Origin: an uncultured Poribacteria bacterium
GTDB lineage: Bacteria; Poribacteria; WGA-4E; WGA-3G
DNA length: 64,000 nt
Direction of reading: 5' to 3'
Assembly: GCA_951828515.1 (NCBI GenBank)
Contig: OX639992.1
Location: 5,310,217-5,374,216, forward strand
A program made the position numbers and the translations under genes. Positions 10,801 through 54,700 of the stretch are shown piece by piece. The notes beneath the pieces are model-generated. The model made no database searches. It saw only the letters and a list, made by a program, of their open reading frames with translations, and was not told the DNA's origin. Each line of letters begins with the position of its first letter. The first letter of the stretch is position 1.

Positions 10801-10947
10801 CACGTGTATCGATTCAAAGAGAATACTGGTGTGTGGGAACAGGTTGCCCCGGAAATCCCAATGCCTATTACCTCTCTTGCTGTTGAGGAGAACGTGCTTT
10901 ATGTCGGTACCGCTGGCAGTGGTGTGTTACGTTTTAAAATTAATTAG
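7879..10947 (+). CDS. Membrane-tethered ECF sigma factor with beta-propeller (paralogue 1)
   Basis: A 1022-residue one-chain sensor-regulator. Residues 5-90 form sigma region 2 (EITQDAFLTAYKKL, FPGWLYVIAANL). Residues 130-180 form sigma region 4 with the helix-turn-helix ISEFLGVSQNTIKSRLSR. One membrane helix follows at about 222-242, then a Pro/Ala-rich linker to about 318. The remaining 700 residues hold eight Asp-box repeats of the form SxDxGxTW, as in sialidase and YCF48 propellers. The topology places sigma domains in the cytoplasm and the propeller outside the inner membrane. ECF sigma factors and Asp-box propellers are each well known; their junction here is what I infer to be a signal-gated, membrane-anchored sigma factor. 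GGAGGA precedes the ATG. Confidence 0.85.
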   Translation: MAHTDVELIRRILQGDQNAFSPLVKKYQKGVHTLAWRKIGDFHIAQEITQDAFLTAYKKLGTLKNHTQFPGWLYVIAANLCRDYLKKSRLPMESLDTTDANEVDKVSYSQYVAEKQKADADETRREVVKKLLQKLPESERTVMMMHYLGEMTIKSISEFLGVSQNTIKSRLSRARNRLRQEEDVLQENLGSFQLPDTLADNIMQEVSRIAPVPPAASKPVAPLAISAASAVLIFLLMGVGTQYLSRFQKPYNLDARSEPTVEIIDAVFVYDSPAKPAVRSQAGSSVLPGKSPGAGQKSEESLVATLPIDTAEVPTPKPQWNQTKGPEGGSVRNLFIAANGDSYAGTGTDLYRLVDDGSRWGIVNANMPFNGSWQMTEYDKTLYLVSDTEVLASIDRGETWNSLGTRPKGQLVDLVITDGTPGARSDIVMYLGLAEGVFSSVDTGKSWIPVSDRLVDKEIRAITTIEDVVFVGTDSGLYRRNSEGWTLLPVDEDHKTRNIRAMASAGYRLYVAVGDKVVNKDFGFGLPSRIVWEASLSLYRSTDLGDSWQTLDYRKTETEPSPQVSITIRVGPAAPESAQNGKESPKDAETKTTLIFEMVAVEDNLFVVDDGNGYYSNDTGDTWVTLDSSIPDIGDVSTLVSLNANTFYWNGESGIYRTTDTGKTWHPFNAGLVKTAVMNLVSVQNVLYANVGGTLLTSSNAGESWTPVLVPSSLGNIIQLARFNDVLYARGMDETEPQPRLFRLSTEDNRLTPVPGMPFLKKTDYTKLMEERFKEILPVTDQTEGQQNILEDNILEDLDMEAFVEDYSPALEELLGEIVRSVIGNFAVSGDTYYMEYEQRLFRWKTGATEWVDTGLINELPVDRIDSANMPYSLPSNLAVSGSTVYVGKWDGHLFQSFDEGNTWNDVTASLPFPVAHFKGVTFTGSTVYVATDKGVAFSNDGVHWHATTDTEGAPILIERFAIGGTTLYGTSERHVYRFKENTGVWEQVAPEIPMPITSLAVEENVLYVGTAGSGVLRFKIN

Positions 10948-19956: not shown

Positions 19957-22917
19957 GTGGAACAAAACGATGCTCAATTCATTTGGCGGGTATTACAGGG
20001 GGACCAGGAGGCATTCAGTCCCTTAGTGAGAAAATATCAGAAGGGGGTTCACGCGCTGGTGTGGCGGAAGATCGGTGATTTTCATATTGCCCAAGAAATC
20101 ACGCAAGACGCGTTTCTCACTGCGTATAAAAAACTCGGAACCTTGAAAAACCATACCCAGTTCTCAGGTTGGCTCTATGTTATCGCCGCAAACTTGTGTG
20201 CTGACTGGTTCCGAAAGAATCGCATGCCGGTGCCGGAATCCGTAGAGGCTACCGAGACTAATGAGATAGACAGGGTTTCATATTCTCAGTATATAGCAGA
20301 AAAACAGGCAGCCGAAGCGGATGAAACGCGCCGTGAAGTCGTTAAGACGCTCCTCCAGACACTGCCCGAAAGCGAACGGACAGTGATGACGCTCCATTAC
20401 CTCGGCGAGATGACGGTCAAATCCATTTCTGAGTTTCTCGGTGTCTCCCAGAATACCATCAAAAGCCGCCTGAGCCGCGCTCGCAACCGTTTACGAAAAG
20501 AGACAGACGTACTCCAGCAGAATCTTGGCAGCTTCCAACTCCCGGATCAATTAACAGAGAACATCATGCGGGAAGTTTCACGTCTGAGTCCGGTTCCTGT
20601 TCCTACGGGTAAGCCGGTAGCCCCCTTGGCACTTTCCGCTGTCTCGGCCGTCGTGCTTTTCCTACTGATTGGGGTTGGCACGCAGCATCTCTCCCGTTTT
20701 CAGAAGCCTTACAACTTCGATGCCACCTCGGAATCGACGGTTGAGATTATTGACGCAGTTTTTATTTACGATTCCCCTGCGAAACCCGCAGTCCGGAGTC
20801 AGGCAGGAAGTTCCGTGCTCCCCGGTAAAAGTCCTGGGGCAGGTCAGAAACCCGACGAATCTCTTTTTGCCACACTCCCCGTCGACACGACAGAGGTCTC
20901 AACCCCGAAACCGCAGTGGACCCAAACTGGGGGTCCCGAAGGCGGCGGGCAGAACTTGTTCATAACATCTAAGGGAGATGCTTACGCCGGAACAGGTGCC
21001 GACCTCTATAGATTGACGGACGATAGAAGTCAGTGGAGTCTTGTCAACGCCAACATGCCCCTTAACGGGTCATGGCGAATAACAGAACGGGACGATACCC
21101 TCTACGTTGTCTCCGATACGGAAATCCTCGCTTCAATGGACAGAGGCGAGACGTGGCATCCACTCGCTCCACGTCCAGAAGGACAGTTGATTGATCTCGT
21201 CATAACAGATGAGGTTCCTGGGGCGCAAGCCAATATTGTAATGTACTTGGCATTCGCTGATGGCGTATTCCGTTCTGCGGACGCTGGCAACTCGTGGACT
21301 CCCGTAAGCGAGCAGTTGGTGAAGAAAGAGATTCGCGCAATCACTGCCGTTGAAAATGTTGTGTTTGTTGGGACGGACTCTGGACTGTATCGCCTCAATT
21401 CGGAAGGCAGCACCTTATTATCGGTGGGTGAATCCCAGAATATCCGTGCAGTGGCGAGTGCTGAGCATCGACTCTATGTCGCCGTAGGGGAAAAGGCTGT
21501 GAACCAGGGCATCGGGTTCGGCCTGCCAGCGCGAATGATATCTGCGACATCTCTGGTACTTTATCGCTCAACAGATTTGGGAGATTCGTGGCAGACATTA
21601 GACTTTATAAAAAGGAAAACAGAGCTATCCTCCCAAGATGGACTGACGATTCATGTTGCTTCTGGAACTTCGGAATCCTACCAAAAGGGTAAGGATGGAT
21701 CCAAAGATTCAGAAACGAAAACGACTTCAACCTTCAAAATGGTAGCAGTGGAAGAAAGCCTTTTCGCAATGGACGATAAAGGCAGTTATTACTCAAGTGA
21801 CGCAGGTGAAAACTGGGTTACCTTGGATTCAAATATACCAGACATAGGAGATGTTTCCAGGCTCGTGTCTTTGAATGCGAATACCTTCTATCGGAACGGA
21901 AAGTCCGGGGTTTATCGCACAACCGATGCCGGCAAAACGTGGCATCCATTTAGCACGGGATTGGTAAATACAAGCGTGATGAATTTAGTTTCTGTGCGGA
22001 ATGTGCTGTATGCCAATGTGGGGGGCGAACTTCTCGCCTCGTCCAACGGGGATGAGGTGTGGACACCTGTCCCAAGCAGCCTCGGAAACATCACGAATCT
22101 GGCGAAATTCAACGATGTGCTCTATGCCAGAGGTATAGGAGGCACCGAACATCCCGTTCAACTCTTGCGCTTATCTACCGAGGACAATCGGTTAAGTCCT
22201 ATTCCGGGGATGTCATTTTTAGGGAGGTCAGACTATACTGAAGTGATAAAAGCAAGGGCTGGAGGTTACCGTAACGTGGAAGAGATCCTGAAGATGATGG
22301 GGGGACTTCTCGGAGGTTTCGCTGTCAGTCGTAATACCTACTATATGGAATATGAACAGAGACTCTTCAGATGGAAGACCGGCACGTCTGAATGGGTGGA
22401 TACCGGACTCATAGACGAAGGTGAATTCATTGATACGGCTGGCAGTTTTAACAATCCCAATTTCATCGGTTTCAAAATCGCGGTTTCAGGGAGAACTGTC
22501 TACGTCGCTAAATTGGACGGACACCTCTTCCAGTCGTTTGACGAAGGAGATACGTGGAACGATGTTACGGGGGAATTTCCGTTTTCTTTTACACATTTCA
22601 AGGCAATAGGATTCGTTGGCTCCGCTATCTACGTAGCAACCGATAGAGGGGTTGTATATTCAAGCGATGGCGCGCACTGGCACGTTACATCCGACCCTGA
22701 AGGTGTGCCAATCGTTATAGACCAATTTGCGGTGAGCGGAACAACTCTGTATGGCGTTACGGAACAACGCGTCTATCAATTAAAAGAAAATTCTGACAGA
22801 TGGAAACAGATGACACCCGAGATTCCGAGTCCTGTTAGTGCTCTCGATGTTGAAGGGAACGTGCTTTATGTTGGGACCTATGGCAGTGGTGTGTTACGTT
22901 TTAAATTAGACGACTAA
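19957..22917 (+). CDS. Membrane-tethered ECF sigma factor with beta-propeller (paralogue 2)
   Basis: A 986-residue paralogue of the protein at 7879, with the same order: sigma region 2 (about 5-90), sigma region 4 (about 130-180), one membrane helix (about 222-243), a Pro/Ser-rich linker and a propeller with eight Asp boxes (for example SMDRGETW, STDLGDSW, SFDEGDTW). The cytoplasmic half and linker are close to paralogue 1; the propeller diverges more and is shorter in the segment after about residue 760, where paralogue 1 has an acidic insertion. It starts at a GTG, with a strong GAGAGGAGG site. The ABC-2 permease follows 39 bases downstream. Confidence 0.85.
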   Translation: MEQNDAQFIWRVLQGDQEAFSPLVRKYQKGVHALVWRKIGDFHIAQEITQDAFLTAYKKLGTLKNHTQFSGWLYVIAANLCADWFRKNRMPVPESVEATETNEIDRVSYSQYIAEKQAAEADETRREVVKTLLQTLPESERTVMTLHYLGEMTVKSISEFLGVSQNTIKSRLSRARNRLRKETDVLQQNLGSFQLPDQLTENIMREVSRLSPVPVPTGKPVAPLALSAVSAVVLFLLIGVGTQHLSRFQKPYNFDATSESTVEIIDAVFIYDSPAKPAVRSQAGSSVLPGKSPGAGQKPDESLFATLPVDTTEVSTPKPQWTQTGGPEGGGQNLFITSKGDAYAGTGADLYRLTDDRSQWSLVNANMPLNGSWRITERDDTLYVVSDTEILASMDRGETWHPLAPRPEGQLIDLVITDEVPGAQANIVMYLAFADGVFRSADAGNSWTPVSEQLVKKEIRAITAVENVVFVGTDSGLYRLNSEGSTLLSVGESQNIRAVASAEHRLYVAVGEKAVNQGIGFGLPARMISATSLVLYRSTDLGDSWQTLDFIKRKTELSSQDGLTIHVASGTSESYQKGKDGSKDSETKTTSTFKMVAVEESLFAMDDKGSYYSSDAGENWVTLDSNIPDIGDVSRLVSLNANTFYRNGKSGVYRTTDAGKTWHPFSTGLVNTSVMNLVSVRNVLYANVGGELLASSNGDEVWTPVPSSLGNITNLAKFNDVLYARGIGGTEHPVQLLRLSTEDNRLSPIPGMSFLGRSDYTEVIKARAGGYRNVEEILKMMGGLLGGFAVSRNTYYMEYEQRLFRWKTGTSEWVDTGLIDEGEFIDTAGSFNNPNFIGFKIAVSGRTVYVAKLDGHLFQSFDEGDTWNDVTGEFPFSFTHFKAIGFVGSAIYVATDRGVVYSSDGAHWHVTSDPEGVPIVIDQFAVSGTTLYGVTEQRVYQLKENSDRWKQMTPEIPSPVSALDVEGNVLYVGTYGSGVLRFKLDD

Positions 22918-31514: not shown

Positions 31515-31554
31515 CTTAAGTTAAAACAGAGTACGATTCTGGAGGAGGCTGGTG

Positions 31555-34500
31555 ATGGAACACAACGATGCTGAGCTCATTCAACGGATATTACAAGGGG
31601 ACGAGGACGCATTCAGCCCTTTAGTCACGAAATATCAGAAAAGGGTTCACGCGCTGGTGTGGCGGAAGATCGGCGATTTTCACATCGCACAGGAAATTAC
31701 GCAAGACGCGTTTCTCAAGGCATACCAGAAACTTGGGACCTTGAAAAACCATACCCAGTTCCCAGGCTGGCTTTATGTCATCGCAGCAAATTTGTGTTCT
31801 GACTGGTTCCGAAAGAATCCGCCACCAGAACAATCTTTAGAAGTTACTGATATGAGTGAGGTGAATGAAGTGTCATACTCTCGATACATAGCAGAAAAAC
31901 AGGCGACCGAAACCGATGAAACCCGCCGAGGAATCGTCAAGAAACTGCTGCAAAAACTACCAGAGAGTGAGCGAACAGTAATGACGCTTTACTACCTCGG
32001 GGAGATGACAATTAAAGCCATTTCCGAGTTTCTCGGTGTATCTCCAAATACTGTTAAGAGTCGGCTCAGCCGCGCTCGGAATCGTCTAAAGAAGGAAGAA
32101 GACATGATTCAACAAAATCTCGGCAGCTTCCAACTGCCTGCTAACCTAACACAGAACATTATGAACGAGGTCTCACGTATCACTCTCACTCCACCGACTA
32201 CAAATAAACCAGTGATCCCTTGGGTGCTTTCTGCTGCTTCGGCTGTATTGATTTTCCTGTTGATGGGGGCTGGCACACAATATCTCTCCCGTTTTCAGAA
32301 ACCTTACGACCTAAACGCTACATCGGAACGAACGGTTGAACTCATTGAGGCGGTTTTGGTCGTAGATTCACCTGCGAAACCTGCAGTCCGGAATCAGGTA
32401 GGAACATCGGCTGTCCCGGGTAAGAATCCCGGTGCCGGTCAACAACCGGACGCTCGACTTTTTGCCGCAGCCCTTGTTGATGAAACTGAAGTTTCAACAC
32501 CAAAATCGCAGTGGATCCAAACAAAGGGACCCGCAGGGGGGCTTGTCAACACCCTCTTCACTACAACGCGTGGGGATATTTACGCCGGAACCTCCACTAA
32601 TTTTTATAAGATGTCAGACGACGGACATTCATGGAAACTTGTCATCGCTGGAAGTCCAACATCACTCAGCCTGAAAGATTGGATGATGGGCGGCACACAA
32701 CAGATGGTAGAGTGGGACGATACGCTCTACGTCGCTACCAATGGGGAGGTATTGACTTCTACAGATGATGGTGAGACATGGACTTCGCTCGGTGCGCACC
32801 CCAAAGGGCAACCGGTCGGCATTGTCATAATGGATGGACTTCCTGGAGCAGAAGCCGAACTGACAATGAACCTCGCTCTTGTTGAAGGTGTATTTCGTTC
32901 TGTGGATACTGGCACATCGTGGGTACCACTGAATAACGAGAACCTCGCGGGTCGAAAAATTCGTGCAATCGCTGCAGTTGAAAACATCCTTTTTGCTGGA
33001 ACAGACAGTGGACTCTATCGTCTCGACACGGATACATGGAAAAAATTGTCCATTCGTCCAGCAGAAATGTCCGAAAATCAATTCGCTATTCATGCCTTAG
33101 CCGTTGATGAACATCGTCTCTATGTTGCCGCAGGGGACGAACTCACAAACCAGAATCAGATCGGGATGCAACTTAAATCATCACTGACAGGGAATGAGCA
33201 GTGGGCACTTTACCGTTCAACCGATCAAGGCGATACGTGGTATTCCATAAATCCACGGAAGAGACAAGAACATGAGGAAAAGGAGCGGCAAGGTGGACAA
33301 TTTGGGATGAGTTTTCCATTCCCTGGTGCAGAGACAACAGAAATTTATATGCCCAGTATCAAACTCTTCGCGGCGCAAGGGAGGGTTACAGTCGTAGATT
33401 CGCTTGGATCAATTTTCTATTCCCTGAATACCGGGGAAACTTGGGCTGCCTTAGATGTAAAGAGTGGGTCGGGTTACAACGTCCCTCCGCCTGTGCTGAT
33501 GATGGACGCGAACACTTTCTACAAAGGTGCTCCATCTGGGGTTCAGACCACAATTGATGGTGGAAAAACGTGGTATCCGTTTAATAGTGGGATCGTTGGC
33601 ATTCCGGTTCAGACGCTCATCACTGTTAACGATAAACTCTACGCAAATTCAACAAATGGGTTTGTCTCCTCAACGGACGGAGGTGAATCGTGGATGCCGC
33701 TTCCCGGCGGTCTTGACCACGGTGTCTTTATTGAAGCATTTGATGGTGCTCTCTATGTAAAGAGAGCAAATCACATGAATACACCTTCACCGCTACTTCG
33801 ACTGTCTACCGAGGATCATAGCATAGCGTTTATAGAGGGTATGCCCGCTTTTGAAAACATCAATTCACAGAACCCAGGCGAAGAAATCAGCAAGATTCTG
33901 GAGGAAGCACTTACGAAAATCGGTGATCAAAACCCTGAGGAAGGGATGCCACCAAATCTTGAGGATATTGATTTTGAGCAGTTAAATGAAACCATGAATA
34001 AGGTTATCCAAGAACAAGCCTCAGCCGGTATGATGGCGTTTATCGGAAGCTTTGCCGTGAGTAGCGATACTTACTATGTGGAATACGGGAAGACGCTTTT
34101 CAGATGGAAACCGGGTATGAGTGAGTGGCACAACACGGGTTTAGTAGACGAAGGCGAAGACGCTTTCGCATCTCTATTGTCCTCTCCTGACAGTTATTCC
34201 GCTGATGTTGCGACTGCTCATGATTCAATTACTTCTATGGGCTTCAAAATCGCCGTATCGGGCAGTACTGTTTACGTCGGAAAACGGGAGGGACACCTCT
34301 TTCAATCGTTTGATGAAGGGGACACTTGGCACGATGTTACTGCAGGTATCCCGTTCTCTTTTGAGAAATTCAAGGCAATCTCCTTCGCGGGACCAACCGT
34401 TTATGTGGCAACCGACACAGGTGTTGCGTATTCAAACGACGGCACGCACTGGCACGTCACAACCGATGCTGAAGGTAAATCTCTCGTTGTCTCCCGATTA

Positions 34501-34689
34501 GCAGTGGAAGGCACAACGGTGTATGGACAGACCGACCAACACGTGTATCTGTTGAAAGAGGATTCCACTATATGGAAACAGGCGACACCCGAAATTCCAG
34601 GCTCTGTTATCTCTTTCACTGTTGATGGTAACATACTGTATGTCGGCACCGCGAATCGTGGTGTCCTGCGGTTCAACCTTGATGAATAA
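31555..34689 (+). CDS. Membrane-tethered ECF sigma factor with beta-propeller (paralogue 3)
   Basis: A 1044-residue third paralogue: sigma region 2 (about 5-90), region 4 (about 128-178, FLGVSPNTVKSRLSRARNRL), one membrane helix (about 220-242), linker, then a propeller with eight Asp boxes (STDDGETW, STDQGDTW, STDGGESW, SFDEGDTW). An acidic insertion of about 50 residues lies near residues 775-830. GGAGGAGG precedes a GTG-ATG pair; the ATG at 31555 aligns with the other paralogues. Here no ABC permease follows; the next gene encodes a small exported protein related to part of the thioredoxin-like protein. Confidence 0.85.
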   Translation: MEHNDAELIQRILQGDEDAFSPLVTKYQKRVHALVWRKIGDFHIAQEITQDAFLKAYQKLGTLKNHTQFPGWLYVIAANLCSDWFRKNPPPEQSLEVTDMSEVNEVSYSRYIAEKQATETDETRRGIVKKLLQKLPESERTVMTLYYLGEMTIKAISEFLGVSPNTVKSRLSRARNRLKKEEDMIQQNLGSFQLPANLTQNIMNEVSRITLTPPTTNKPVIPWVLSAASAVLIFLLMGAGTQYLSRFQKPYDLNATSERTVELIEAVLVVDSPAKPAVRNQVGTSAVPGKNPGAGQQPDARLFAAALVDETEVSTPKSQWIQTKGPAGGLVNTLFTTTRGDIYAGTSTNFYKMSDDGHSWKLVIAGSPTSLSLKDWMMGGTQQMVEWDDTLYVATNGEVLTSTDDGETWTSLGAHPKGQPVGIVIMDGLPGAEAELTMNLALVEGVFRSVDTGTSWVPLNNENLAGRKIRAIAAVENILFAGTDSGLYRLDTDTWKKLSIRPAEMSENQFAIHALAVDEHRLYVAAGDELTNQNQIGMQLKSSLTGNEQWALYRSTDQGDTWYSINPRKRQEHEEKERQGGQFGMSFPFPGAETTEIYMPSIKLFAAQGRVTVVDSLGSIFYSLNTGETWAALDVKSGSGYNVPPPVLMMDANTFYKGAPSGVQTTIDGGKTWYPFNSGIVGIPVQTLITVNDKLYANSTNGFVSSTDGGESWMPLPGGLDHGVFIEAFDGALYVKRANHMNTPSPLLRLSTEDHSIAFIEGMPAFENINSQNPGEEISKILEEALTKIGDQNPEEGMPPNLEDIDFEQLNETMNKVIQEQASAGMMAFIGSFAVSSDTYYVEYGKTLFRWKPGMSEWHNTGLVDEGEDAFASLLSSPDSYSADVATAHDSITSMGFKIAVSGSTVYVGKREGHLFQSFDEGDTWHDVTAGIPFSFEKFKAISFAGPTVYVATDTGVAYSNDGTHWHVTTDAEGKSLVVSRLAVEGTTVYGQTDQHVYLLKEDSTIWKQATPEIPGSVISFTVDGNILYVGTANRGVLRFNLDE

Positions 34690-34780: not shown

Positions 34781-35344
34781 ATGATCCGATTTCTTATTCT
34801 TCTCGCGTTTTTTATCATCTTCACAACTGGAAATACTGGCTGCGATCACGACCCTGATGGCGTGGATGAAGAAACGTCAGCCAGCATCGTTGAGAGGTTG
34901 AATGAAGAAGACAAAGCCACCCTTGCAAATAAGTTAAAATCTCTTGATTACCTGTTATCCCGCCCACTTGAGCAGCGGAAAGCAAGGTCAAAAGAATATA
35001 TGCGCAAGTATCTTGAACTCAAAGATAAGGACGATCCAGAAGCATTAGAAGCACTCAGAACCTCTTTGTATATCCACGCTAAGGGCGATCATCCTCTCTT
35101 GGAAGAGTGGGTAGTTCTCACACATAAGATTTTCTGGGAAAAGGAAGCAACTGTGCCGGAGCTTTTGCGGGGGAATCAGATAGAACTCCAAATCGCGCGC
35201 GATAACGATGAAAGTCGGAACTATATCAAGACTTTGGAAGAAAATGCTGAACAACTTGAACACCAGATTAAGGACCTTGAGGACCAGGGGGTGAACCCTC
35301 AAGAATTCAAAATTTCTATAGAAGTCGAGGGTGATGAAGACTAA
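34781..35344 (+). CDS. Small exported protein related to TlpA-like N-terminal domain
   Basis: A 187-residue protein. A signal helix (residues 3-17) ends at GNTGC, so it may be a lipoprotein, although the lipobox is atypical. Residues about 85-160 (HPLLEEWVVLTHKIF, EKEATVPEL) align by eye with the repeated domain of the thioredoxin-like protein at 24585 (HPLTEKWIELFFRM, ERAATVSDI). The C-terminal 50 residues form an acidic coiled coil. GAGGAGG precedes the ATG. No catalytic motif is seen. It follows sigma-propeller paralogue 3 by 91 bases and is likely cotranscribed. Confidence 0.65.
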   Translation: MIRFLILLAFFIIFTTGNTGCDHDPDGVDEETSASIVERLNEEDKATLANKLKSLDYLLSRPLEQRKARSKEYMRKYLELKDKDDPEALEALRTSLYIHAKGDHPLLEEWVVLTHKIFWEKEATVPELLRGNQIELQIARDNDESRNYIKTLEENAEQLEHQIKDLEDQGVNPQEFKISIEVEGDED

Positions 35345-35466: not shown

Positions 35467-36021
35467 ATGCGTCAGCTAAAGTGGTCATTTATCTGTTTGT
35501 CAGTTTTATTAGCTACATCGCTCGTTTTTAAGTTTGGGTGTACTACCGAAGAATACGGTAAAACAGGGTTTGATATTGTATTGGCAGTTACCGGCATGAA
35601 ACGGGTTACTTCTGTTTTCAGCGTTATAAACGCATTGCAAAAGATTGATGCATTGGTTATTGATGATGTGACTTACAAGGTAATAGGAGCCACACTGCCG
35701 TTTGGTAGAGTGAAAAATGAATCTCCAGTTACAATAAAGTACCCTTATCAGACTGAAAAGGTTAAGAGCGAAACGACCGAGCCAGTTTTGGAAAATAAAA
35801 TAGGCTGGAATCTGAAGCCTAATGAACCGAAGTACTTTACTGTTCAGGTAAGGGCACTCGCTGAGGCAGATCCCACTAATGGTGTGAATGAAGTAATCTC
35901 AGAGCGCGTAAAAGCGGCTTTAATAGAAGCCGTTGAAATAGTGGGATTTGAAGCGCGTGTGGAGAGCATAGAAGCGCTTGAGGCAACTTCTACGAAGCGT
36001 TACACATTCGGATCCAATTAG
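35467..36021 (+). CDS. Unknown exported protein, probable lipoprotein
   Basis: A 184-residue protein with a signal helix (about 8-22) and Cys25 in FKFGCTTEE, a possible lipid-attachment site though the lipobox is imperfect. The mature part appears to be mixed alpha/beta, with VIDDVTYKVIGATLPFGRV suggesting a beta sheet. No family recognised. GGAGGA precedes the ATG. Codon use is more AT-rich than in the sigma-propeller genes upstream. Neighbours on both sides encode envelope proteins. Confidence 0.6.
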   Translation: MRQLKWSFICLSVLLATSLVFKFGCTTEEYGKTGFDIVLAVTGMKRVTSVFSVINALQKIDALVIDDVTYKVIGATLPFGRVKNESPVTIKYPYQTEKVKSETTEPVLENKIGWNLKPNEPKYFTVQVRALAEADPTNGVNEVISERVKAALIEAVEIVGFEARVESIEALEATSTKRYTFGSN

Positions 36022-36357
36022 CATGAATGTTCCACAATACCATGGAGATACAGATGCGATAAGAATATAGGGATAGATCCCGATAAACACGAAATTGAGT
36101 TTCGTTTCCAAGAGATGTAAATAAAGCTTTTGTAATCCTGTAAATCCTAAAATCCCGTAAATCCTGATTCTGACAATTATCGTCACATATTACAGGATTA
36201 AATTCTTCATCTTCATCCAAGCACACCTTTTCTATTCCTGTAAACGTGCTTTGTAAACCCATCGTTAAATCTTTCGGACAGGATTTGACAATGAGACCTT
36301 AAGTTATTACAATAACCTTTACAATCTCCGAAAACCATACATGCCCAGAAAGTGAAT
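36022..36357. repeat. Gap with AATCCTGTAAATCCT repeat units
   Basis: Bases 36133-36174 hold two imperfect copies of an 18-base unit (TAATCCTGTAAATCCTAA and AATCCCGTAAATCCTGAT), and TTACAGGATTAA at 36189-36200 is an inverted relative. No gene or clear promoter is seen in the rest of the gap. Confidence 0.5.
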
Positions 36358-38364
36358 ATGAAATATAATGTTATAATTATAGTCTTACTACTGCTAATTG
36401 TATCCACACAAACGTCCGCTGCAACTTCAGACGGCACAATCCCTTTCGATTGTCCTGATATACCAGATGCCAAGTTTCAGTTCCACTTTACCCGTGAGCT
36501 CATCGCACTCGCTGCTCCGACAGCACCCTTCAATACAGTGGACAATCTTTACATCCACATCTACGATGATGAAGTCGGTATTTATGATAAACTCGCGCAA
36601 TATTACAACGAGAACTTGAAAGCGAAAAACTGGAACGGCATACAGGAAGATGATAGGGTCCGACTCTATGTCCTGAACGGCGCCACTCTGGAAGGCACGA
36701 GTGAGGATAACACTTTCACGGGCATCTTTGCGGTTATAAAAAATGCTGAGAAGGTCTATCTGCTAAACATTGTCGGCAATGTTCCATCGCAACAGGCAGG
36801 TCAACTCTTAACGAATCTCGGTAAACTCGGTATTGAGATCCCAGAACTGGAATCGCCACCCGCGTTAGACGCTGACGAACCACCTGCTTCTGTACGGGCT
36901 ACTGGGAGCCTTAGCATTCGCATTCCGTTTGTTACTTTTAACGAACAACCCCCATCTTCACCCACGCGGTTCCGCACTGCCGATGGTTCGCAGATCCATG
37001 AAGTTCAGATTCAGGGCAATCATACAATTGATAGGTCGGAGATTCTCGAAACGCTTGAAACTGGTGACGAGGACATCGAAAAAGCAGTAGAAACACTCCG
37101 AAAAAAAATGGGCGCGAAATTAGAGGTGGTAGAGTCGAGTATTAAAGAAAAAGACGGGAAACATATAGCGGTGATTACCGTAAAAGAACGCGCTTCATTA
37201 CGGTCTTCTGGTTCCTTTACAATGAACCCGATGATTAGATTTAACCGGGTCACAGGTTGGAAACTGGGTACGACTGTAAAAAGGGATTTACGAAGAGCAC
37301 GCTTTTCAAATGGAATGCCGACCTCAAATATTTTTGGATATGCAGGTTACGGATTCGGTAACAAAATAACAGATGTCGAAATTGGTATTGATACGATGCC
37401 GTTTGTGACGTACACACAATTTAACAATCCGGAGGGAGATGCTGACAGATGGTATCATGGGTTTGGCATAAATGCCAAGGTACACCGTGTTGCAGACATC
37501 ACACCTGACAACGTGATTCCTTATCGTGTTTCTCATTCTTTGAATGATCCAGGTGCTTTATTTTACAACCTTTTTGGTGCGGAAGACTTGCACAACTATT
37601 ATTTCAAGACTGGCGTTGAAGTAGCGTTCCGATGGGAAAAACTGCCACGTGTGGCGTCTATTCCCGCAAGGCATTTGCTTAAGTTGACACTTCTTGCTGA
37701 AAACCACGAGAGTCTGAAAAAGAGCACGGATTGGCATCTTTTCAACTGGCGTTCAAGGTCAAAGGCACGAGAAAATCCAGCGATAACGCCCGGTCGCATG
37801 CGGAGCGTTATGTTTGAATATGATTTTAACACCCGCCGGAACTACCTCGGTTGGCATAACACTTTCCTTCTTGAACATAGCAGGACAGTCTTCGGTTCGG
37901 ATTTCGATTTTACACGCTACCAACTCCATCTCCGCTATGCACATCCACTCGGTAAACATCGGATACGGACTCGGGCAATCGGTAGTTTTTCAACCGCATC
38001 TCTACCGATTCAACGCCAATTTACCATCGGTGGACCGGGCATATTGAACGGTTATCCGCTCTACGCTTTTGCTGGTGACCGTGGCTATCTCTTCAACGTC
38101 GAATATTTTTACCCCTTACCGGAACTCTTTTTTTGGAGAAACACGCAATCCGATTTTGATTTTAACCTCTTTTTGGTGCTTTTCCTTGATGCAGGTCAAA
38201 CGTGGAATTTAACTGACGAAACGCACACACTTGTGCCGAAAAGCGATGCCGGTATCGGTTTCCAGTTCGGTGAAAGTGATTCCTTCCTACGGTTTAACGT
38301 TGCGAAAGCTTTTGAATCGGAACAAGGTGTGCAATTCAATGTCCTCTGGTTTCATAGTTTCTAA
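36358..38364 (+). CDS. DUF4252-like / POTRA / BamA-type outer-membrane barrel (copy 1)
   Basis: A 668-residue outer-membrane protein. The signal peptide is residues 1-22. Residues about 30-165 resemble DUF4252 (LAQYYNENLKAKNWNG, GIFAVIKNAEKVYLLNIVGN). One POTRA-like unit follows (about 215-285, IHEVQIQGNHTIDRSEIL), then a 16-strand-type barrel of the bacterial surface antigen family (about 290-668), with GGPGILNGYPLYAFAGDRG near the end and a C-terminal Phe as expected for Bam-inserted proteins. The ATG at 36358 has only a weak upstream site; GTG at 36352 is the alternative. Possible role in outer-membrane assembly or secretion. A second copy at 41074 has two POTRA-like units. Confidence 0.8.
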   Translation: MKYNVIIIVLLLLIVSTQTSAATSDGTIPFDCPDIPDAKFQFHFTRELIALAAPTAPFNTVDNLYIHIYDDEVGIYDKLAQYYNENLKAKNWNGIQEDDRVRLYVLNGATLEGTSEDNTFTGIFAVIKNAEKVYLLNIVGNVPSQQAGQLLTNLGKLGIEIPELESPPALDADEPPASVRATGSLSIRIPFVTFNEQPPSSPTRFRTADGSQIHEVQIQGNHTIDRSEILETLETGDEDIEKAVETLRKKMGAKLEVVESSIKEKDGKHIAVITVKERASLRSSGSFTMNPMIRFNRVTGWKLGTTVKRDLRRARFSNGMPTSNIFGYAGYGFGNKITDVEIGIDTMPFVTYTQFNNPEGDADRWYHGFGINAKVHRVADITPDNVIPYRVSHSLNDPGALFYNLFGAEDLHNYYFKTGVEVAFRWEKLPRVASIPARHLLKLTLLAENHESLKKSTDWHLFNWRSRSKARENPAITPGRMRSVMFEYDFNTRRNYLGWHNTFLLEHSRTVFGSDFDFTRYQLHLRYAHPLGKHRIRTRAIGSFSTASLPIQRQFTIGGPGILNGYPLYAFAGDRGYLFNVEYFYPLPELFFWRNTQSDFDFNLFLVLFLDAGQTWNLTDETHTLVPKSDAGIGFQFGESDSFLRFNVAKAFESEQGVQFNVLWFHSF

Positions 38365-38387: not shown

Positions 38388-38657
38388 ATGCACCGACACA
38401 CCAATCGTATTTTTTCACTATCCTTTGGATTCTGTATTGTATCAATATTGATAGTATCGTCTATTTTTGACGGTCATTTCGCCTCAGCAGCTGTAGTTGA
38501 GAATGCGGAGACGGATGTCTTCACCTTCGTTCGTTTGAAATACAGGGGTTCCTGGGGGCACCGCGGCAAATGGGATACAGATTGGCCCGCTTCAGATCGG
38601 AAAAAACATGCAACTTTTCGGGTGCTCGTTTGTAGTAGTATAAAGGATATATTGTAG
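38388..38657 (+). pseudogene. Truncated DUF4159 gene
   Basis: Eighty-nine codons. The first nine (MHRHTNRIF) resemble the start of the next two genes. Codons about 43-70 (DVFTFVRLKYRGSW, DWPASDR) match the N-terminus of the intact DUF4159 protein at 43674 (DRFTFVRLKYGG, DHPASDR). After ASDR similarity ends at once, and a REP-like element begins within 60 bases. It appears to be a DUF4159 gene that lost about 190 codons. It may still be translated as a short exported peptide. Confidence 0.7.
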
Positions 38658-38723: not shown

Positions 38724-39887
38724 ATGCGAAGACATACAAATAGAGCACTATTGCTATCCTTTGCTCTACATATCGGGCTGATGTTAGCGATCTCACCGTT
38801 TCTTGTGAATCATTTTACCATAGAAAAAGAGAGCATATCGGCTGAGATATTGGAGCCAGAATCCGAGAACCCTGTGAAACGACGGGTTCTACCGGCGCGT
38901 TCGCCTGTAGTGCCACAAGTGAACAAGACCGAATCATCACCCACATCCCCTGCTTCACCGGTATACGCACCAGAGGTAAGCGTCCCGAAGGCACCTGTCC
39001 ATGCTGATGTAACGCCTGACATCGTTACTCACGCTGATCTTCCCCACTCAGACGCTCCAAGTCCTGTGTCCAACGCCAGTTTTGGCGAAGACGGCGCGCT
39101 TGCAGGTCCTGTTGTGATTAAGGGACAGCAAGGAATCGGGGTTGGTGGCATCGGAAACAGTGGATATGGGAATGGAAAACACTTGGTTTCCCACGGGACA
39201 GGTGTATCAGATGTAGGATTCGCGACGCTTGATGCCGTAGATGAGGGACTCGGTATCTTCAACACAGACGTGATGCCAGGACACGGATTAATTGGGCAGG
39301 CTTATGTTCCCGGTATCGCTATTGAGCGGATGCCCGATTTTGGGGCTTTGACCCCAGTTTATACCTTTATTACAAAAAATTTAGATGTACCCATAAGAGA
39401 GTACACGCAAGGATTTCCTATACCGGGGAAGCAGATTGTCGTTGAGAATTTCGCGGTTCGGTTCCGCGGTGTGTTGGCTGTAGATACTCCCGGTAGGTAC
39501 GCTTTCTGGCTTTTATCGGATGATGGTTCAAAGTTGTACATTGCCGACACCCTCGTTATCGATAATGATGGAATTCACGGAATAACGCGGAACAAGGGAC
39601 GCAAGGATCTGTCGAAAAATGCCCAGGTATCGTGGCATTTTGAGGGACCTTTCATGGATATGGGTAAACAGGGAAGTATGGAGTTAACAGCCGGGACACA
39701 TCCGTTTGAAATTCAGTACTTCCAAGGACCCCGTTATGAAATCGCGCTTCAATGGTTCTATCAACCCCCAAATTCCTATAGACAGATTGTTCCACCTGAA
39801 GTTATCTATCGCCCGGGTAAGTCGCGCGTGCCAAATGCGTTGAAGAAACTACAGCAACGACTCGAGCATATTGAGCAAATAAACTAA
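38724..39887 (+). CDS. TonB-like anchor fused to PA14 domain (copy 1)
   Basis: A 387-residue envelope protein. Residues 10-27 form an uncleaved-type membrane helix with SFALH, the Ser-x3-His pattern of the TonB anchor that meets ExbB/ExbD. A Pro/Val-rich linker (about 50-130, VVPQVNKTESSPTSPASP) and a Gly-rich stretch (about 140-165) follow. The rest is a PA14-type beta-sandwich (AFWLLSDDGSKLYIADTLVI, LTAGTHPFEIQYFQGPR), which binds glycans in other proteins. The usual TonB C-terminal domain is absent. AAGGAG precedes the ATG. The next, paralogous gene begins one base after this stop. Confidence 0.78.
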   Translation: MRRHTNRALLLSFALHIGLMLAISPFLVNHFTIEKESISAEILEPESENPVKRRVLPARSPVVPQVNKTESSPTSPASPVYAPEVSVPKAPVHADVTPDIVTHADLPHSDAPSPVSNASFGEDGALAGPVVIKGQQGIGVGGIGNSGYGNGKHLVSHGTGVSDVGFATLDAVDEGLGIFNTDVMPGHGLIGQAYVPGIAIERMPDFGALTPVYTFITKNLDVPIREYTQGFPIPGKQIVVENFAVRFRGVLAVDTPGRYAFWLLSDDGSKLYIADTLVIDNDGIHGITRNKGRKDLSKNAQVSWHFEGPFMDMGKQGSMELTAGTHPFEIQYFQGPRYEIALQWFYQPPNSYRQIVPPEVIYRPGKSRVPNALKKLQQRLEHIEQIN

Positions 39888-39888
39888 A

Positions 39889-41058
39889 ATGCGAAGATAT
39901 ACAAACCGTGCCTTATTGATATCGCTTGTGCTCCACATAGGATTGATGTTGGCAATCTCGCCGTTTCTTATGAATCATTTCACCACAGAGAAAGAGAGCA
40001 TATCGGCTGAGATATTCGAGCCAGAGTCCGAGAAGCGAGTGAGACAGCGGGTTTTATCGCCACGCACACCTGTGGTACCACAGGTAAGTGAGACGGAAGC
40101 ATCACCCTCATCCCCTGCTGCCCCGACGTATACGCCAGAGGTGAGCGTTCCAAAAGCACCCGTTCATGCCGATGTAACTCCCGATGTCGTTACGCACGCC
40201 GATCTTCCCCAAGTAGATACGCCGAGTCCTGTCTCCAATACCAGTTTCGGTGAAGATGGAACACTCTCAGGTCCCGTTGTCGCTGAGGGACAGCGAGGAG
40301 CCGGGGTTGGTGGACTTGGGCGCGGGGGACGTGGGACCGGCGGATACGGGAGCGGAAAACACTTTGCAAAAGGGACAGGCGCATCGGATGTCGGACTCCC
40401 AACGCTTGACGGCATAGATACAGGTCTTGGTATCTTTGACACAAATGTGATGGCTGGACACGGATTAATCGGGGAAGTCTACGTCCCTGGTGGTACGATC
40501 CATCGGATGCCGGATTTCGACCTTTTGACACCTGTCTATACCTTTGTTACACCGAACTTAGATGTCTCTAAACGAGAATATACCGAGGGATTCCCGACAC
40601 CAGAGATGCAATATGTTGTTGAGGATTTTGCAATTCGCTTCCGAGGGGAGTTAGCAATCGACACACCCGGATTGTATCATTTCGCGCTTTACTCAGATGA
40701 TGGGGCAAAACTATACATTGACGGAAATCTGGTTGTGGATAATGATGGCGTTCACACAGGGAAGGGGAAACGGGGCAGTATAATGCTCTCAACCGGTGTA
40801 CATCCCGTTGAGATTCACTATTTCCAAGGACCTCGATACTCTATCGCGTTACAGTGGTACTATACCCATTCCAAAGAACCTTTTTCTGAGACGAGGCGTT
40901 CCCGTTCGATAACAACCCCCGCATGGAGCTTGCGATCAGAGTCATATCTGCTCGGAAGGATTGTGCCACCCGAGGTTATCTATCGCCCCAGCAAGCCTGG
41001 TATTCCAGATGCACTGAGGAAACTACAACAACGCCTAAAGAACATCGAAAATGATTAG
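39889..41058 (+). CDS. TonB-like anchor fused to PA14 domain (copy 2)
   Basis: A 389-residue tandem paralogue of the preceding gene: anchor with SLVLH (Ser-x3-His), Pro-rich linker with PVVPQVSETEASPSSPAAP, a longer Gly-rich stretch (GLGRGGRGTGGYGSG) and a PA14 domain (ALYSDDGAKLYIDGNLVVDN, STGVHPVEIHYFQGPR). Near residues 320-345 it has an insertion that copy 1 lacks (FSETRRSRSITTPAW). Only one base separates it from copy 1, with no room for a promoter, so translation is probably coupled. The proximity to two outer-membrane barrels suggests a shared envelope complex. Confidence 0.78.
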   Translation: MRRYTNRALLISLVLHIGLMLAISPFLMNHFTTEKESISAEIFEPESEKRVRQRVLSPRTPVVPQVSETEASPSSPAAPTYTPEVSVPKAPVHADVTPDVVTHADLPQVDTPSPVSNTSFGEDGTLSGPVVAEGQRGAGVGGLGRGGRGTGGYGSGKHFAKGTGASDVGLPTLDGIDTGLGIFDTNVMAGHGLIGEVYVPGGTIHRMPDFDLLTPVYTFVTPNLDVSKREYTEGFPTPEMQYVVEDFAIRFRGELAIDTPGLYHFALYSDDGAKLYIDGNLVVDNDGVHTGKGKRGSIMLSTGVHPVEIHYFQGPRYSIALQWYYTHSKEPFSETRRSRSITTPAWSLRSESYLLGRIVPPEVIYRPSKPGIPDALRKLQQRLKNIEND

Positions 41059-43673: not shown

Positions 43674-44402
43674 ATGCGAACCATCCAGTTGTTAGCTACT
43701 TTCATCGTGATGTCCTTATCTACTATCCTGCCGAATTCGGAATGTGATTCGGACCGATTCACCTTCGTCCGCCTAAAATATGGCGGTCGACTCACCAGAC
43801 GTAGTAGTTGGCGGGTGGATCATCCTGCCTCTGATCGGAATTTTATCTGGCAACTCCGTAAACAGACGAACATTGATGCAGATCCCCGTGAAAAGATTAT
43901 TGAAGTTGGTGCGACGGAACTTTTTGAATATCCGTTTTCCTACATGTTGGAGGTCGGTAGTCTTAGGTTAAGCCGAAAAGAGGCGAAGAACCTACGAGAA
44001 TATCTCTTACGCGGCGGTTTTATCTTTGTTGACGATTTCCACGGGGAACGCGAATGGGAACGGTTTTACACGGAATTCAAAAAGATTTTCCCAGAACGAG
44101 AGCCGGTGGATATCCCAATATCCCATCCGATTTTCCAATGCTTCTTCAAAATCGAAGAACTCGTTCAGATTCCAGGACTCCGCTCACTCTTTAGTGGACG
44201 CACGTACGAAAGATACGATGGTTATCCAGCGTACTGCCGCGGCGTTTATGACGACAATGGACGGCTTATGATGATGATCAACTTTAATACCGATCTTGGA
44301 GACGCATGGGAGCATGCCGCTGAGAGTTTCTATCCACGCGAGTATTCAAATATCGCATTGCAGATGGGTATCAATGCGGTTGTCTATGCGCTCACGCATT
44401 AA
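43674..44402 (+). CDS. DUF4159 domain protein, exported
   Basis: A 242-residue protein with a signal helix (about 5-20) and a DUF4159 domain over nearly the whole mature length. The family marks are FTFVRLKYGG (about 27-36), LREYLLRGGFIFVDDFHGER (about 108-127), ISHPIF and DAWEHAAESFYPREYS. DUF4159 proteins have no established activity. They often occur with envelope or MoxR-type loci, and here the gene closes a duplicated barrel/PA14 module. The start Met at 43674 has no strong ribosome site (CGGAAAAAT). A truncated sister lies at 38388. Confidence 0.82.
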   Translation: MRTIQLLATFIVMSLSTILPNSECDSDRFTFVRLKYGGRLTRRSSWRVDHPASDRNFIWQLRKQTNIDADPREKIIEVGATELFEYPFSYMLEVGSLRLSRKEAKNLREYLLRGGFIFVDDFHGEREWERFYTEFKKIFPEREPVDIPISHPIFQCFFKIEELVQIPGLRSLFSGRTYERYDGYPAYCRGVYDDNGRLMMMINFNTDLGDAWEHAAESFYPREYSNIALQMGINAVVYALTH

Positions 44403-52767: not shown

Positions 52768-53178
52768 ATGAATAATCAGTATGAATGTTTTGGTAGAGAT
52801 CTCACAGTGGGTTGTGCTCGAAAACTTATACAAGAGTTATTTAAAGGTCAAACTGTCCGCAGACATGAGGTAATTCGCAGAACCTCCAATGACGCAGATG
52901 CCTACTACCATCGGGGACTTGCAAATATTGGCTTGGAAGAATATGAGGCAGCCATTACTGACTTTGACGAGGCAATTCGCATAAATCCCAACGACGCGCA
53001 TTCTTACTACAATCAAGGCCTTGTGAAGTTTCGCCTCAATCGTCTCAGCAAAGCAGAGGAGGATCTCCAAATAGCATTGCAACTATCTGAACAAATCGAT
53101 GATGCGGAACTCATAGGCAATATTCGGTATCTCCTTTATGAAATCAATTCCCGAACTGTGGAAGGGGCTGATGAATAA
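52768..53178 (+). CDS. Small TPR-repeat protein
   Basis: A 136-residue protein with two clear tetratricopeptide repeats (about 48-115: AYYHRGLANIGLEEYEAAIT, SYYNQGLVKFRLNRLSKAEE) and a probable third C-terminal helix pair. TPRs mediate protein-protein contact. No signal peptide, so cytoplasmic. AAGGA precedes the ATG. Its last eight bases overlap the start of the methyltransferase gene, so the two are translationally coupled, and it may regulate or bind that enzyme. Confidence 0.82.
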   Translation: MNNQYECFGRDLTVGCARKLIQELFKGQTVRRHEVIRRTSNDADAYYHRGLANIGLEEYEAAITDFDEAIRINPNDAHSYYNQGLVKFRLNRLSKAEEDLQIALQLSEQIDDAELIGNIRYLLYEINSRTVEGADE

Positions 53179-54700
53179 ACTCTACTTCGGCGATAACCTT
53201 GAAATCCTACGCGAGATGGACGACGAACAAGTAAATCTCATTTGCACCGACCCGCCTTTCAATAGTGGGCGTGACTACAATGCTTTCATTGACGATTCCC
53301 TCGCGCAGAAGAAGGCTTTTACGGATACATGGACCTGGGATACCGCAGCACAAGAGGCTCGCGCCGATATCGAGCATCGCGCCTACACCAGCGATACTTA
53401 CAACGCCCTCAATAATTGCCTCAAGGGGTACGACCTCGTCTTGCAAAATGCTGTGTCTGGGAGTCGAGGTGAAATGCGGGCGTATCTCGCGTTCATGGGA
53501 CCTCGACTTGCTGAGATGCACCGAGTACTCACCCAAAATGGAAGTATCTATTTGCACTGCGATCCGACTGCAAGTCATTATCTCAAAGGTATTATGGATG
53601 CGATTTTTGGCGCGGAGAATTTTAGGCGAGAACTCATTTGGAATTTGAACACAGCCTCTGGGTATAAAAGTCAAATAAATGGCTTTATACGAGGACATGA
53701 TGTCATTCTTTATTACACCAAGAACACAGATGCTTTTGTATTCAACAAGATTTTTCAACCACATAAACCCGAATATATTAGGCGGTTCAAGAAAGTTGAT
53801 GAACAAGGGCGGCATTATCGGGATGATAGACCAAATAGGGCTCGTCAGTATCTTGACCAAACAAGAGGTGTAGCGTTAACAGATGTCTGGTCGGATATAA
53901 TGTCTTTCCAGCAAAATGCAACCTCTGTGGAACGTCTCGGCTATCCTACACAAAAGCCTCGTATCCTTTATGAACGTATGATAAAAGCCTCCAGCAACGA
54001 AGGCGACATCGTCCTCGACCCTTTCTGTGGCTGCGGCACGACGATTGATGCCGCACACACGCTGCACCGACAGTGGATCGGTATAGACATAACGATCCTC
54101 GCCTTAGATCCAATGCGGCAAAGATTGAAAGACCGGCATGGCTTAGAACCGTCAATGGATTACCAAATCGAAGGCTATCCAACGAACATGCAGGAGGCCC
54201 GCAAACTCCTGAAAGAGGGAGATAAACGCAAATATCACGACTTCTCAAATTGGGCAGTGACGCGACTCGGATTGAAGCCGACGCGAGATGTCAGCGATGG
54301 TGGACTTGATGGTGTCGGGTATGTCACATTATGGAATCCGCGGCGGATGAAGGAGACAGACGCACGCATTCTCGCTGAGGTCAAAACCGGTAGACCTACT
54401 CTCACGCAGGTGCGCGCCTTTTGCCATGTGATGGATCAACGCAACGCAGAAATCGGCATCTTTATCTTACTTGAACCTGTTAGCCCCAGCATGCGACAAG
54501 AGGCTGAAAATATGGGCAGTTTCACGCATAACGGTCAGAAGTATCCGCGCCTCCAATTCTGGCAGATAGACGATGCATATTTTGAGAATCCTAATATCAT
54601 TAACACCCTCGTTCGGATGCCAGCTGAATGGAGAATCCGTCCAAGTCAGAAATCCACACGGCATTTTGCCGGACAGCAGACAGAATTTCTGCGAGGATAG
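53171..54700 (+). CDS. Beta-class DNA methyltransferase fused to nuclease-like domain
   Basis: A 509-residue protein. The DPPF motif of amino-methyltransferases (CTDPPFNSG, residues 27-30) comes before the AdoMet motif (LDPFCGCGTT, about 282), the order of the beta class that makes N4-methylcytosine or N6-methyladenine. The last 150 residues hold GGLDGVG (Asp380) and ILAEVKTGR (Glu403-Val-Lys405), the D...ExK signature of PD-(D/E)XK nucleases of the Mrr type. It could be a single-chain restriction-modification enzyme or a methyltransferase with a DNA-binding remnant. The start at 53171 overlaps the TPR gene; an earlier frame start at 53138 is inside it. Confidence 0.85.
   Translation: MNKLYFGDNLEILREMDDEQVNLICTDPPFNSGRDYNAFIDDSLAQKKAFTDTWTWDTAAQEARADIEHRAYTSDTYNALNNCLKGYDLVLQNAVSGSRGEMRAYLAFMGPRLAEMHRVLTQNGSIYLHCDPTASHYLKGIMDAIFGAENFRRELIWNLNTASGYKSQINGFIRGHDVILYYTKNTDAFVFNKIFQPHKPEYIRRFKKVDEQGRHYRDDRPNRARQYLDQTRGVALTDVWSDIMSFQQNATSVERLGYPTQKPRILYERMIKASSNEGDIVLDPFCGCGTTIDAAHTLHRQWIGIDITILALDPMRQRLKDRHGLEPSMDYQIEGYPTNMQEARKLLKEGDKRKYHDFSNWAVTRLGLKPTRDVSDGGLDGVGYVTLWNPRRMKETDARILAEVKTGRPTLTQVRAFCHVMDQRNAEIGIFILLEPVSPSMRQEAENMGSFTHNGQKYPRLQFWQIDDAYFENPNIINTLVRMPAEWRIRPSQKSTRHFAGQQTEFLRG

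Follow-up and report, generated by a model that had tools for sequence, protein, structure and literature searches.

The window analysed here is a 64,000-nucleotide stretch of contig OX639992.1 (assembly GCA_951828515.1) from an uncultured Poribacteria bacterium, a sponge symbiont. Among its genes are two that lie head to tail, the second starting 1 bp past the stop codon of the first, and each encodes a protein that joins a TonB-type membrane anchor to a PA14 domain. These two genes and their neighbours are as follows (positions are those of the window).

31552..34689, + strand: ECF sigma factor–TM segment–BNR/Sortilin-like propeller fusion; common upstream neighbour of the operon
36352..38364, + strand: Omp85 barrel protein A, 670 aa; DUF4252-like N-terminal region, POTRA-like segment and Omp85 barrel (Pfam Omp85 1.9e-10)
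38388..38657, + strand: truncated DUF4159 relative; anchor-like N terminus MHRHTNRIFSLSFGFC, with Cys in place of the motif His (SFGFC)
38724..39887, + strand: PA14-headed TonB-type anchor, copy a, 387 aa; TM helix with S12-x3-H16, D-box-like ISAEILEP at residues 38–45, Pro/Gly linker, PA14 at about residues 190–345, conserved C-terminal helix
39889..41058, + strand: PA14-headed TonB-type anchor, copy b, 389 aa; S12-x3-H16, D-box-like ISAEIFEP, linker, PA14, C-terminal helix
41074..43542, + strand: Omp85 barrel protein B, 822 aa; DUF4252 (1.7e-6), weak POTRA, Omp85 (4.3e-8)
43674..44402, + strand: secreted DUF4159 protein, 242 aa; Pfam DUF4159 9e-52; conserved operon member

Both anchors begin with MRR.TNRALL and continue into a hydrophobic helix (ALLLSFALHIGLMLAISPFL in copy a, ALLISLVLHIGLMLAISPFL in copy b) that carries Ser12-x3-His16. 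Reading the sequences, we found neither a lipobox nor a plausible signal-peptidase site beside the helix in either protein, and the helix is predicted to remain uncleaved. Beyond it lies a linker of ~160 residues with 16–17 Pro and 19–24 Gly (the median linker has 159 residues, with 9.4% Pro and 12.3% Gly), followed by a PA14 domain that Pfam (PF07691) placed at residues 234–344 of copy a (50.5 bits, E 2.6e-13) and residues 243–326 of copy b (57.4 bits, E 1.8e-15), in both cases above the gathering cut-off of 24. Past the PA14 domain is a conserved PDALKKLQQRL-like helix. Pfam returned no match in either protein to the TonB C-terminal domain (PF03544/PF13103), which is present in three other anchor proteins of the genome, or to a vWA C-terminal domain, the head being PA14 instead. 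We judged a weak match of copy a to SidD_cat (E 0.0045, under the cut-off) to be due to chance. The first-pass annotation had described two tandem proteins, each with a Ser-x3-His helix at its N terminus, a Pro-rich linker with a Gly-rich part, and a PA14 domain, and all of these elements were confirmed. Among relatives, the anchor copies are in tandem in several and single in many others.

Of 60 related genomes, 50 had homologues, in some cases with a match over the anchor alone or over PA14 alone, and a GTDB scan yielded 65 loci with homologues, nearly all of them named Candidatus Poribacteria; the four matches under other names covered only PA14. Every homologue with an intact N terminus kept Ser-x3-His (74/74, a count from which we left out six homologues lacking the motif that were truncated or of another kind), and both S12 and H16 were invariant in 42 of 42 aligned homologues while most other helix positions varied; these genomes and loci are related, and the counts are therefore not independent events. 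At the two motif sites the codons varied synonymously (TCA, TCC, TCT or TCG for Ser and CAT or CAC for His), indicating that the constraint acts on the protein. As controls we used 260 distinct ORFs with a strong N-terminal hydrophobic stretch, of which four contained SxxxH: one was anchor-derived, and the other three had the motif at the end of the signal peptide. Conservation thus rules out a chance origin of the motif. In the cryo-EM structure of E. coli TonB–ExbBD, the Ser and His of this motif in TonB contact ExbB (PMC12215075). Of the full SHLS motif, the PA14 anchors do not retain the Leu or the last Ser, two positions at which the Ton family also varies (PMC12215075).

These results bear on the simplest alternative, which is that the anchors are ordinary secreted PA14 proteins with a cleaved signal peptide and a coincidental Ser-x3-His. 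Although the N terminus does show signal-peptide n- and h-regions, this explanation is contradicted by the conservation of the motif in homologues compared with its rarity in the controls, and it also sits poorly with the missing cleavage site and with the D-box-like strand; we regard it as extremely improbable.

That strand, which was absent from the first-pass annotation, is a second putative docking element. It reads ISAEILEP and ISAEIFEP in the window proteins, the counterpart in E. coli TonB being ISVTMVTP, and the TonB D-box (QPISVTMVTPAD) is captured by an ExbD dimer (PMC10907165). We predict that the ISAEILEP-like strand is a D-box-like site for docking on ExbD. Located by sequence pattern, it starts 22 residues past the motif His in 71 of 76 homologues. 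A matching strand is found at an offset of 22–23 in canonical TonB_C proteins of the window genome (L040 and L043) and mostly at 22–24 in its DUF4159 and VWA anchors, with the simple pattern giving a different offset for L042 and three VWA anchors.

To characterize the head we modelled the PA14 domain alone, using 45 homologues (pLDDT 67); the full-length fold of anchor b was a poor model (pLDDT 38). The best matches to the PA14 model were carbohydrate-bound Marinomonas PA14 domains (Foldseek E 1e-8; Z 15.5, rmsd 2.6 and 150 aligned against 6XA5), with the PA14 domains of RsgI sensors tied (Z 15.4) and yeast flocculin lectins following (Z about 12). Among homologues the Asp-Asp and Asn-Asp loops hardly vary, Asp-Asp being present in 40 of 41 aligned heads. 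PA14 lectins bind sugar in a Ca2+-dependent manner through an Asp-Asp motif, but DDG is also found in other PA14 domains. As modelled, the head has a lectin-type PA14 fold, and it probably binds sugar. It shares its fold and the Asp-Asp motif with the sugar-binding domain of MpPA14 (6XA5, 6X8A) and the yeast flocculin/Epa lectins, but those heads are borne on surface adhesins, whereas the poribacterial head is carried on an inner-membrane anchor.

The motor that such an anchor would engage is encoded far from the window. There is only one MotA/ExbB gene in the window genome, and two different ExbD genes lie behind it in the same operon; the ExbD has the conserved TM Asp. The product of this sole ExbB gene (L001:1444-2433) bears an N-terminal carboxypeptidase-regulatory-like domain. 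Across the genus, each genome gave exactly one strong ExbB match, any further matches scoring weakly and falling mostly within ORFs that are much longer. Where E. coli ExbB has the Trp that contacts His20 of TonB, the ExbB of the window genome has an aligned Leu, implying that the two contact surfaces are not the same in detail. In sponge Poribacteria, transcription of the homologous motor genes is high, and ExbD* was seen at the cell membrane (PMC5087111). The first-pass annotation had looked to homologous loci for neighbouring ExbB/ExbD genes, and on this point it was not upheld, as we recognised none next to the PA14 anchors of 20 extended and about 60 named loci. Nor was any transducer, canonical TonBs included, found beside the motor operon in the 3-kb loci that we read from the window genome and distant genomes. 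Because each genome of the genus has a single strong ExbB match, and the motor operons that we read have no transducer beside them, the lack of ExbB/ExbD near the PA14 anchors says little against their coupling.

An anchor-profile search of the window genome identified about 15 proteins with a TonB-type anchor, which is a lower bound, and their heads comprised two PA14, three DUF4159 plus one short relative, six VWA and three TonB_C; related genomes had 1–16 matches each. The same genome has 16 matches to the TonB-receptor plug domain. Its six VWA-headed anchors (L008 and L074–L078) fit the vWA force transducers that have been proposed. Because the anchor profile (A1) included other anchor kinds, we rechecked homology using a profile built on PA14 anchors only, and in a test set that had itself been picked with A1 this profile matched DUF4159 anchors at 2e-8 and 2e-7, several VWA anchors at about 1e-5, and TonB_C proteins at 0.06 or weaker. 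What ties the anchors to canonical TonB is therefore their motif, spacing and topology and not a significant score.

In one relative we found a natural chimera (L101:8719-9999), located directly upstream of a PA14 anchor, in which DUF4159 (E 1.6e-50) replaces PA14 while the anchor, linker and C-terminal tail are the same. This chimera supports the idea that one motor probably serves many interchangeable heads. The small DUF4159 proteins encoded upstream of the anchors (n = 7) have an anchor-like N terminus without the linker or the D-box, and five of the seven have lost the motif His, with Cys in the window protein and in L044, and Tyr in L051, L052 and L092; longer or intact copies of the truncated window gene exist in relatives (e.g., L044 and L096). 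The loss of His in these linker-less relatives suggests that it is retained only where the whole transducer is retained.

A further alternative is that nothing is energised and the PA14 proteins are inner-membrane-anchored periplasmic lectins or sensors that inherited a TonB-like segment as a mere membrane anchor. The distance to the motor genes would fit such a reading, as would the Pfam search, which reported no TonB N-terminal family in anchors a and b. For membrane anchoring alone, however, there is no need for Ser and His to be invariant while the rest of the helix varies, or for a D-box-like strand to keep a fixed spacing, and relatives without the linker also tend to lose the motif His. 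We therefore consider a passive anchor quite unlikely, and judge from the sequence features that the PA14 anchors are very probably coupled to the ExbBD motor.

What the anchors act on is suggested by the genes around them. The first-pass annotation had placed them next to BamA-type barrels, and the barrels proved to be Omp85 proteins in a conserved operon, with protein A the conserved upstream neighbour and protein B, whose gene begins 15 bp past anchor b, the conserved downstream one. The usual gene order is ECF-BNR, Omp85, PA14 anchor (one or two), Omp85, DUF4159. Within 300 bp downstream of a PA14 anchor, the next gene encodes an Omp85 in 37 of 59 cases, a DUF4159 protein in 8 and a second PA14 anchor in 3, the commonest gap to the next gene being 12 bp. 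Among solved structures the barrel of protein B is closest, weakly, to TamA-type proteins (best E 7e-4), and the only TamB match of the window genome is far off, outside the window (C1:4991930). Apart from the two window Omp85s, no full protein of their type occurs in the genome. Each of the 40 genomes that encode a PA14 anchor has an Omp85 of this type, compared with a strong match (E<1e-60) in 2 of the 20 that do not, although these related genomes are not independent. Genomes G043 and G047 have a window-type Omp85 with no PA14 anchor detected, and some PA14 anchors have no adjacent Omp85 (L116, L119, L120, L123, L125, L136 and L138), which together indicate that the pairing is not obligatory.

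The ECF-BNR fusion upstream is a possible regulator of the operon. It is one of three single-chain fusions of this kind in the window (7879-10947, 19957-22917 and 31552-34689), each an ECF sigma factor, a TM segment and a long BNR/Sortilin-like propeller, an arrangement that would tie the ECF factor directly to a periplasmic sensor of its own; one such fusion commonly precedes the PA14 operon across relatives. Between the fusion gene and the first Omp85 gene lie two genes for small conserved exported proteins (34781-35344, 187 aa; 35467-36021, 184 aa) without a trustworthy family match. Elsewhere, solitary short PA14 anchors (297–308 aa; L116, L119 and L123), without Omp85, adjoin a site-specific DNA methyltransferase gene in several genomes, and the window contains a similar methyltransferase gene at 53138-54700.

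It could also be that the anchors are motor-driven and the PA14 head works on the cell wall or another glycan, as a Tol-Pal-like tether or remodeller, with the Omp85 genes merely co-regulated. The lectin fold of PA14 is in keeping with this idea, as are solitary anchors without Omp85 (L116, L119, L120, L123 and L125) and a group with PA14-DUF4159 in which Omp85 was not detected (L115, L126–L129, L131, L133 and L135). Against it stands the tight Omp85 linkage of most loci, often with 12-bp gaps or 4-bp overlaps, which extends to another family of the order (L060, L062 and L063), and the restriction of window-type Omp85s in this genome to the PA14 operon. On this evidence we think a cell-wall target with bystander Omp85s unlikely. 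That the Omp85, or its glycan or cargo, is the target is a proposal that we hold in even balance, the partner being assigned from gene order.

Taking the two docking motifs and their spacing, the linker, the lectin-type head, the single motor and the conserved Omp85/DUF4159 operon together, we consider it probable that the PA14 anchors belong with the force transducers of TonB/TolA type, that ExbBD drives them, and that their lectin-like head works, most likely, on an envelope machine built around Omp85; we can hold this joint reading with such confidence because the target is named only as the most likely one. In the mechanism that we infer, the N-terminal helix would dock on ExbB through Ser-x3-His and the D-box-like strand on the ExbD pair, the Pro/Gly linker would span the periplasm, and force would be passed to the head, where the lectin-type PA14 domain and the short conserved C-terminal helix would take hold of a target at either the outer membrane or the cell wall. 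The power source would be the one ExbB-ExbD-ExbD′ motor of the cell, whose genes lie elsewhere and which is presumably common to canonical TonBs, VWA- and DUF4159-headed transducers and the PA14 anchors. The likeliest target would be the co-encoded machine of TamA-like Omp85 barrels, which have DUF4252/POTRA domains in the periplasm, together with the DUF4159 protein, gripped perhaps via a glycan or glycosylated cargo. Of the energised envelope system put forward in the first-pass annotation, the TonB-type anchor (with Ser-x3-His, the D-box-like strand and their constant spacing), the lectin-type PA14 and the Omp85 operon stand, while ExbB/ExbD genes near the loci do not.

Several described systems share parts of this design. 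The anchors resemble TonB of ExbBD-TonB in the Ser-x3-His motif, in a D-box-like strand at nearly the same distance from His and in the Pro-rich linker, but they lack TonB_C, carry a PA14 lectin-type head and are encoded in an operon that has Omp85 barrels and no TonB-dependent receptor. TolA of Tol-Pal has the same kind of anchor and the same three-part layout; unlike it, the PA14 anchors have no TolA C-terminal domain, and neither tolB nor pal was recognised in their conserved neighbourhood. As in TamA-TamB, an Omp85 barrel closest to TamA is paired with an inner-membrane-anchored, periplasm-crossing protein, but here that partner is not TamB-like and the Omp85 bears a DUF4252-like N-terminal domain. 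The closest described kind is the vWA-headed force transducer with a TonB/TolA anchor and motor box, predicted in 2025 in other phyla (PMC12204202, Mol Biol Evol), which shares with the PA14 anchors a TM helix with SHLS-type Ser/His, a motor box beyond the helix, a Pro-rich linker and a C-terminal domain that is neither TonB nor TolA. The PA14 anchors differ in having a PA14 head, in not being encoded beside motor genes and in belonging to a conserved Omp85 and DUF4159 operon, and vWA-headed relatives occur alongside them in Poribacteria. With this prediction in print, the earlier suggestion that such a system had not previously been described holds only in part. In the open-access papers that we searched, we found no TonB paired with a PA14 anchor and no mention of DUF4159; PA14 or DUF4159 heads, the operon pairing with Omp85 and the layout of one motor with many heads were likewise not found there.

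Our results suggest that the ExbB/ExbD motor also powers machines beyond classical nutrient uptake. More tentatively, and with somewhat less than even confidence, we propose that in Poribacteria one ExbBD proton motor serves as a general power take-off for exchangeable periplasmic heads (TonB_C, VWA, DUF4159 and PA14), with the PA14 branch energising a TamA-like Omp85 machine. If PA14-, DUF4159- and VWA-headed anchors do share one ExbBD motor, the jobs powered in this way would be far more numerous than thought, and the heads would be swappable modules. With the PA14 operon, the idea that an Omp85 machine is coupled to the proton motive force becomes testable, and if the PA14 branch energises that machine, this would be the first case of a proton motor directly driving an Omp85 system.
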